Shown in pieces: positions 17,125 through 18,847 of a DNA stretch of 64,000 bases. The position numbers and the translations under genes are program-made. This stretch comes from Herbinix sp. Lineage in GTDB: Bacteria > Bacillota > Clostridia > Lachnospirales > Lachnospiraceae. The notes under the pieces are model-generated. The model was given only the letters and a program-made list of their open reading frames with translations. It ran no database searches and had not been told where the DNA came from. Each line of letters opens with the position of its first letter. Position 1 is the stretch's first letter. The stretch lies in assembly GCA_029256105.1 (NCBI GenBank), contig JAQSYO010000018.1:23123-87122 (forward strand). The letters run 5' to 3'.

Positions 17125-17243
17125 ATACGCACACCTTTCCTAAATTGTATCTTACTATTATAACACAATTTAAAGGAAAAGTGTAAATCATTTTGATGAA
17201 ATTTAATTCAAGGGGAAATTAATCTATCAAATATGTAAAATAC

Positions 17244-17287
17244 AAAAAAGAGAGCATCTCTACCGTCTAAGCAGATACTCTCTTTTT
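17244..17287. terminator. Hairpin with A/T tracts, terminator-like
   Basis: AAAAAGAGAG...CTCTCTTTTT. Confidence 0.5.
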
Positions 17288-17360
17288 ATATTAAATTATT
17301 CATCATATTTTGGTACATGCCATCCCATCTTCAGAATATGCTTTGAAATGTATCGCAAAG

Positions 17361-17520
17361 CGTTTGGTGATCAGTACCAACCTTTCTAATAAATTGTTTG
17401 AGGTATAACATAAAGTTTCTGGTGGTTTGTACCGTCCTTTCTTTAATATTTTGCTTTGGGTAAATCGCTTATGTGTTTGGCGGTCTGTACCTTCCTTTCG
17501 CAATATTTTTTGTAACTATC
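17361..17520. repeat. Three degenerate ~57-bp repeats
   Basis: GTTTGGTGATCAGTACCAACCTTTC..., GTTTCTGGTGGTTTGTACCGTCCTTTC..., GTGTTTGGCGGTCTGTACCTTCCTTTC...; a possible fourth, more diverged copy near 17307. Confidence 0.75.
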
Positions 17521-17669
17521 TATAGTAATCCTTCGTGAAACTGAAGGAAATTACTTTTAAATTCACTATAAACCAACTTATATTTTTTCTTTTCCTTTCC
17601 ATATTTTTATTATAACTAATCTCTTCTTACTTCTCATAGGGCTTACACTTTTCATGATTTTTATCTTTA

Positions 17670-18550
17670 CAATTAATAGGACACATTCCTTACAATTAAT
17701 CATTATCTTTAAGAGTTTCATCTTATCTATTCATTGGACTCATTCCTTATAATTAATCATTATCTTTAAGAATTTCATCTTATCTATTCATTGGACTCAT
17801 TCCTTATAATTTTATTTTAACCATACTTTTTCTTCTTCTTTTCGATTGAACTTATTACTAATAATCATATTTTATCTTTATGAATTTCATCATGCTAAGT
17901 CATTGGACTCATTCCTTTAATCATTATTTTTTTAGGAAATTCATTTTATTAATTCATTGGACCCATTCCTTATATTAGCTTTATATCTCTAAGAAGCACT
18001 CTTTACAAAAATTATATATCTTTAAGAATTTCAGCTTACTAATTCATTGGACTCATTCCTTATAATTATTTTTCTTTAAGAAATTCATTTTACTATTTCA
18101 TTGGACTCATTCCTTCTAATTAACTTTCTTTAAGAAATTTATTTTACTAATTCATTGGACTCATTCCTTATAGTAGGATTAAATATCTACGAATTGCTTT
18201 TTTTATAAGTATTATTTTACTCTAAGAATTTCAGCTTACTATTTCATTGGAATCAATTTTTAATTATTTTATTCTTCAATAAATTCATCTACCTATTCAT
18301 TGGACTCATTCCTTATAATAATTTTAATTCACTAAGAATTGCTTTTTCTAAGTATTATTTACTTTATGAATTTTAGCTTACTATTTCATAATCTTTTTTT
18401 AAGTATTTCATTTTTATGAAATTCATTTTACCTATTCATTGGACTCATTCCTTTAAGTACTTTTCTTAAGAATTTTATATCATTTTTCTTTGGAATTTTT
18501 ACTTTTGAGTATTTCATTTTACCTTTTCATTGGACTCAATCCTTTCAGTA
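17670..18550. repeat. Degenerate array of a 20-nt core TTCATTGGACTCATTCCTTA in ~54/57- and ~90-nt units
   Basis: Near-identical cores at 17730, 17787, 17900, 17953, 18043, 18097, 18151, 18296, 18435, 18526; degenerate cores near 17677, 17841, 18243, 18383. Inter-core segments also share TTTAAGAATTTCAT/GCTTACTA. Confidence 0.95.
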
Positions 18551-18847
18551 GATTAGCTATTCAGCTTGATTTGTTTTTTATTGTTTGTTATGAGTTAATA
18601 TTACACCACAATATATATCTTGTCAATACAATTATCTGTTAATTTTAAATTATTTTTATAATTGTTGTTATACGCTGTAATTATCTGTCATTTCGGTTAA
18701 CTATTAATTGAAATGTATTATATTGGAAGCCAAATCATCCAATTTCAAGTTATTTTCAAAAAGAAAATTACTAATTGAAATTTGCAAAGATTTATATTAC
18801 AATGTTTAGTTAGGAAATGAAAACAATAACAACATATGGAGGTGTCT

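Follow-up and report, generated by a model that had tools for sequence, protein, structure and literature searches.

Tandem Shine–Dalgarno-like modules in a probable new RNA gene family of Lachnospiraceae

The 1.7-kb gap between the divergent genes for an SNF2-family helicase (minus strand) and pyrB (plus strand), at positions 17125–18835 of the window (the whole 64,000-nucleotide stretch of Herbinix sp. DNA analyzed here), contains an array of short repeats that, judging by its sequence layout, makes up the 5′ portion and the middle of a free-standing minus-strand RNA gene. Comparative evidence supports it well as an RNA gene, and it very probably represents a new family of RNAs made of tandem Shine–Dalgarno (SD) modules. 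This family is apparently undescribed and was previously uncatalogued in Lachnospiraceae: no account of such RNAs was found in the literature searched, and none of the Rfam 15 covariance models matches the RNA gene at gathering score, the flanks giving only tRNA and unrelated T-box hits. That the gene is a row of SD decoys and minigenes titrating ribosomes or an SD-binding factor is a plausible reading, which we place slightly below an even chance.

The original prediction described a degenerate array of a 20-nt core in this gap. The array is real, as pattern scans of the whole genome and of the locus returned ten near-identical cores at 17730–18545. These ten copies, each with up to 2 mismatches, and the decayed ones lie within 17673–18545, and the core is absent from the rest of the 4.8-Mb genome. 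Likewise, TTCATTGGACTCATTCCTTA with up to 3 mismatches occurs 11 times in the genome (five matches with 0 mismatches, three with 1, two with 2, and one with 3), always on one strand and always in the SNF2–pyrB gap, while the reversed pattern gives 0 matches. The core-to-core spacings, decayed copies included, are 57, 57, 112, 54, 90, 54, 54, 92, 53, 139, and 91 nt; apart from the decayed copies, those predicted agree with the recomputed core starts to within 1 nt. The location between the SNF2 helicase gene and pyrB was also correct, and CRISPR was rightly set aside, since comparison of the array sequence shows the spacers to be related and AT-rich.

The strand, by contrast, had been misread. 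The core as read on that strand's opposite, the minus strand, is (A)AAGGAAUGAGUCCAAUGAA, in which an SD-like stretch, a spacer, an AUG, and a stop 1–2 codons later can be recognized, and all ten good cores read as start-stop minigenes (MN*, MK*, MT*, MNR*, or MKR*); the claim that the region has no ORF thus holds for ordinary ORFs only. A second, related repeat had been missed: the unit AAAGGAAGGTACRGACCACCA, also written AAAGGNNGGTACNNNYCRCCA, is found in three copies at 17365–17498, downstream of the array. We refer to this unit as class 1 and to the array cores as class 2. The third class-1 copy opens a genus-specific 3′ domain, GGTAC..GCTTTG..CAAAGC..GTACC, with putative helices recognized by eye. 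Although the array does lie at 17670–18550 as predicted, the feature is larger, with a promoter at 18626 at one end and a terminator at 17244 at the other (Table 1). Promoter-like sites are no more numerous in the region than expected from shuffles, and the weight of the 18626–18598 promoter therefore comes from comparison: together with the first core, it is the best-conserved part of the intergenic region in congeners. The terminator (17285–17244) is also found in congeners, and terminal ORFs were noted by eye at the matching place (MRWHVP.., MNWLVPK*, and MRCQVPQ*). The promoter-like site of the SNF2 gene is kept even in congeners without the array, and the first 60 nt of the gap are 83–92% identical in most congeners.

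Table 1. Features of the putative RNA gene and its surroundings in the window
Feature	Position	Strand	Basis
Promoter of the RNA gene, TTGACA-N17-TAATAT	18598–18626	−	Consensus; comparison with other loci
Inferred transcription start site of the RNA gene	near 18590	−	
Class-2 array, ~12 units, (A)AAGGAAUGAGUCC-AUG-AAN-(NGN)-UAR	17673–18545	−	Cores of the original prediction; ten good copies
Core starts	17673 (3 mismatches), 17730, 17787, 17899, 17953, 18043, 18097, 18151, 18243 (4 mismatches), 18296, 18435, 18526		
Weaker core traces	near 17842 and 18486		
Class-1 unit, copy 1, AAAGGAAGGTACAGACCGCCA	17478–17498	−	Model R1, E = 4.9e-8
Class-1 unit, copy 2, AAAGGACGGTACAAACCACCA	17420–17440	−	Model R1, E = 3.1e-8
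Class-1 unit, copy 3, degenerate, AAAGGTTGGTACTGATCACCA	17365–17385	−	Sequence comparison
Terminal small ORF MGWHVPKYDE*, 10 codons, after SD-like CTGAAG	17296–17328	−	By eye
Intrinsic terminator of the RNA gene, AAAGAGAGTATCT..AGATGCTCTCTTTTTT	17244–17285	−	−21.4 kcal/mol, z = −5.7
Separate SNF2 promoter-like site past the terminator, TTTACA..TATAAT	17157–17187	−	Congener conservation

Far from being absent in syntenic relatives, the core is present at the same place in congeners, as a single element in the SNF2–pyrB gap of G006, G012, G020, G023, G010, G024, and others, and as two in G004. The congener element starts with UUG or AUG and is followed by one to a few class-1 units and then the terminator. 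Several congeners lack the RNA gene, and three congener loci examined in full (L018, L019, and L022) have a short gap only. These layouts indicate that in the Herbinix sp. of the window the class-2 module, single in congeners, has multiplied to about twelve copies. Selection or recent homogenisation had been proposed for the high identity of the cores; it is partly due to an older element, present once in most congeners, having been amplified recently. At another locus in G002 (L016, contig C71, 1330–1760), the RNA gene contains 6–7 copies of the class-1 unit with 58-nt spacing, an independent amplification of the other module class. In the SNF2–pyrB gap of G047 (L031, 1–800), a different degenerate tandem array of ~36 nt, AAGTAAGTAATTCTAAGAAAAGTAATAGGTTTC, lies directly upstream of the class-1 units. 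The gap is also an insertion site in congeners: in G017 (L020, 130–700) a superoxide-dismutase-like gene is inserted, and in G010 (L017, 200–1150) the gap holds an ORF resembling a retropepsin-like protease, both as judged by eye.

The RNA gene extends well beyond the genus. The class-1 pattern GAAAGGNAGGTAYNNNCCNCCA matched 14 of 34 congeners with essentially no background and 24 of 299 Lachnospiraceae genomes, at one place each and with controls near zero; across 85,462 species, with one genome per species, it found more than 119 stretches, nearly all in Lachnospiraceae. R1, a sequence-only model of the class-1 unit, detected it in 126 of the 299 sampled genomes at E ≤ 0.01 and in about 90 at E ≤ 1e-4; positive genomes mostly had a single locus, occasionally two, whereas nothing scored below 4e-4 in about 190 genomes from outside the family. 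At least one third of the sampled Lachnospiraceae genera have the RNA gene, with 1 to 12 modules per RNA, a range that, by analogy, suggests a titrating RNA. The layout of units, promoter, and terminator is kept across more than 80 loci at unrelated positions, and of 81 loci, 60 have a consensus promoter ahead of the first unit on the same strand, compared to 2 with one on the opposite strand. While this anatomy is constant, the neighboring genes vary by genus and are sometimes convergent (from translations inspected by eye, a polysaccharide deacetylase in Blautia, a GH3-like membrane protein in one clade, and others elsewhere); the RNA gene is therefore not a leader tied to a single gene. It is likewise unlikely to be a decoy or to regulate the flanking genes, as originally considered, because unrelated genes adjoin the same unit in other genera. 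Of the three options initially put forward, a repetitive non-coding RNA fits best.

Several clades show variations on this layout. In Blautia and relatives (L105, L118, L091, L095, L106, and L132), 6–10 modules lie upstream of a polysaccharide-deacetylase-like gene, often with eno divergent on the opposite side. One clade (L079, L088, L092, L107, L108, L111, L123, L126, L134, L153, and L155) has a longer RNA, in which an additional conserved stretch, AAGTACAAAAGA..AAGTACTAAAGAAAGCGAATTTCAAATTCGTA, separates the first unit from the terminal ORF. L055, L057, L058, and L059 share a conserved 5′ stretch, TAAGACARACGCGAGYTGTAAA, shortly past the promoter, which has no Rfam match. Matches in other taxa (L117, L136, L144, and L152) lack surrounding conserved sequence and were set aside as chance, and the single viral match (L195), which lies inside a coding ORF and is probably also due to chance, gives no reason to assume carriage by phages.

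Modules are linear and about 34 nt long, with conserved positions that reach well past the SD and mostly allow A/G or C/T alternatives. The two classes share a common register and differ at the start-codon position, where class 1 has CCA or CCG and class 2 has AUG or UUG. On the sense strand, the triplets at this position are CCA (119), ATG (45), TTG (33), and CCG (17), with all others at 3 or fewer, and the antisense strand gives almost nothing. GTG never occurs here and UUG does so very often, so the triplet may have a reader other than the initiator tRNA. In 118 of 174 class-1 units an in-frame stop follows at a distance of exactly two codons; of 125 class-2 units, 48 have it at two codons and 43 at 4–5 codons, and the stop peak at these positions is confined to the in-frame register, with none in the other frames. 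Class-2 modules thus fit the layout of a start-stop minigene (SD, start codon, 1–3 codons, stop), and their stops at two in-frame lengths argue for real reading, whereas class 1 has no start codon and its stop position may be only a fixed spacing. A coding repeat, KGRYxPPxT*, was considered for class 1 and rejected: the register and stop are kept, but most units have no in-frame start, and its presence is not maintained across a clade. Of the 32 loci in which a terminator was detected, 19 also gave a terminal ORF, usually with its stop 0–2 nt from the terminator stem; examples from other genera are MDNVIQ*, LDSIV*, MIEESV*, and MHKEEQ*. A hairpin between the SD and the downstream UACC or UCUC looks convincing by eye in some Blautia-type units, but the observed duplex energies of class-1 units equal those of permuted sequences (−4.03 versus −4.02), and the modules are no more exposed in the predicted fold than the rest of the RNA.

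The 3′ tail of 16S rRNA is GGCUGGAUCACCUCCUUUCU in five Lachnospiraceae genomes (the 16S gene of the window genome was not found in its draft assembly). Mean pairing with the tail amounts to −18.9 kcal/mol for class 1 and −14.7 kcal/mol for class 2, compared to −11.3 kcal/mol for the ATG starts of long ORFs at these loci and about −9.4 kcal/mol for shuffles, and the conserved GAAAGG extends the pairing nearly to the end of the tail. The window cores are no stronger than ordinary start sites in this respect: against the 20-nt tail they reach −12.1 versus −11.3 for gene starts, and against the 12-nt anti-SD they are weaker, at −6.35 versus −8.7. Many class-1 units have a bulged extra base in the SD (GAAAGG-N-AGGU), which would be odd if strong pairing were the sole aim. 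Pairing of CCACC with GGCUGG of 16S rRNA was no better than that of scrambles of the stretch.

We propose that an RNA is transcribed from the strong promoter at 18626–18598 on the minus strand, and that each module would present an SD complementary to the 16S tail, a spacer ending in CC, a CCA/CCG or AUG/UUG triplet, and an in-frame stop a few codons later, with a last ORF of 5–10 codons adjoining or lying near the terminator. Each module would capture an initiating 30S subunit or a ribosome without making protein, and the RNA would be a sponge that titrates ribosomes or an SD-binding factor at many sites, its capacity being set by the number of modules. The ribosome is the putative partner that needs the fewest assumptions.

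Contact with the ribosome could instead be incidental, if the RNA served to soak up an RNA-binding protein or C/U-rich small RNAs whose normal action is to block the SD. Its modules would then imitate the start sites of targets and titrate the repressor, as CsrB and RsmZ titrate CsrA. This explanation, which deserves consideration but strikes us as rather improbable, would account for a linear, weakly structured motif conserved well beyond the SD with mostly A/G or C/T alternatives, for the variable copy number, and for a promoter and terminator of its own. CsrB/CsrC and RsmY/RsmZ are also free-standing RNAs with their own promoter and terminator (features recognized here from sequence) and many short, SD-like, GGA-containing motifs in variable number. 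However, in CsrB and RsmZ the motifs sit in hairpin loops, whereas the modules here are linear, longer, without supported hairpin or special exposure, and equipped with start-codon and stop positions; the Rfam search found no match, and GGA is not invariant, being present in most modules but missing from those of L016, which read AAAGGCAGG (many others read AGAGAGGT or AGCGAGGT). The window genome has csrA, but 12 of the 23 array-bearing genera outside the genus do not, 11 of these 12 being at least 93% complete, and CsrA is encoded by 17 of 20 congeners in which no array was detected. A CsrA sponge is thus not supported as the general role, and no other candidate partner emerged. Alternatively, translation itself could be the function, with the RNA serving as a polycistronic messenger for tiny peptides or start-stop minigenes that act through slow termination, through drop-off of peptidyl-tRNA, or through a ribosome that sits at the last stop codon and occludes the terminator. 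The two in-frame stop lengths after AUG/UUG, the terminal ORF stops adjoining the terminator stem, and the minigene layout of every good core in the window point in this direction, but we regard it as distinctly unlikely: the best-conserved modules, those of class 1, lack a start codon, an in-frame ATG immediately before them is seen in a minority only and is variably present within one clade, and no peptide is constant. The gene downstream is unconserved and sometimes convergent, and therefore attenuation of the following gene cannot be general.

Known translated elements offer partial parallels. Phage lambda bar is an example of a start-stop minigene and likewise has an SD followed by AUG, one or two codons, and a stop, but here such units are in tandem within one RNA, mixed with non-start modules, and conserved across a bacterial family. 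Leader-peptide attenuators share the short ORF with a stop abutting an intrinsic terminator; they have one leader, however, rather than many SD modules, and the RNA gene has no constant downstream gene on the same strand, the next gene being sometimes convergent. At the DNA level, the regular spacing of about 54–57 and 90 nt and the divergent intergenic location would suit an iteron-like protein-binding array, as originally suggested, with a role in regulating the flanking genes. This we find hardly credible, given the fixed orientation to promoter and terminator across many loci in other genera, the conserved register of SD, spacer, start codon, and stop, and the unrelated neighbors. CRISPR arrays, iterons, and REP-type repeats are similarly short, tandem, and intergenic with AT-rich spacers, but here the spacers are related and the repeats have a translation-start grammar inside a predicted transcript. 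A decaying, functionless repeat, still visible through recent tandem duplication, is highly improbable, even though array size varies greatly among congeners and some have a short gap only: the conserved layout across the Lachnospiraceae loci contradicts it for the family, while the extra copies in the window species could fit.

An RNA family made of apparent ribosome-binding sites, most of them followed by no gene or merely by reading frames of 1–10 codons, occurs in a dominant gut family and is absent from Rfam. We tentatively suggest a Lachnospiraceae-wide class of RNAs that control translation capacity, in which rows of extended SD sites, part of them lacking a start codon and part forming start-stop minigenes, would sequester 30S subunits or ribosomes. 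Ribosome capture, if true, would be a novel means of setting translation capacity; if a protein or a small RNA is captured instead, the family would point to an unknown global regulator in Blautia, Dorea, and Roseburia, which are major gut commensals.
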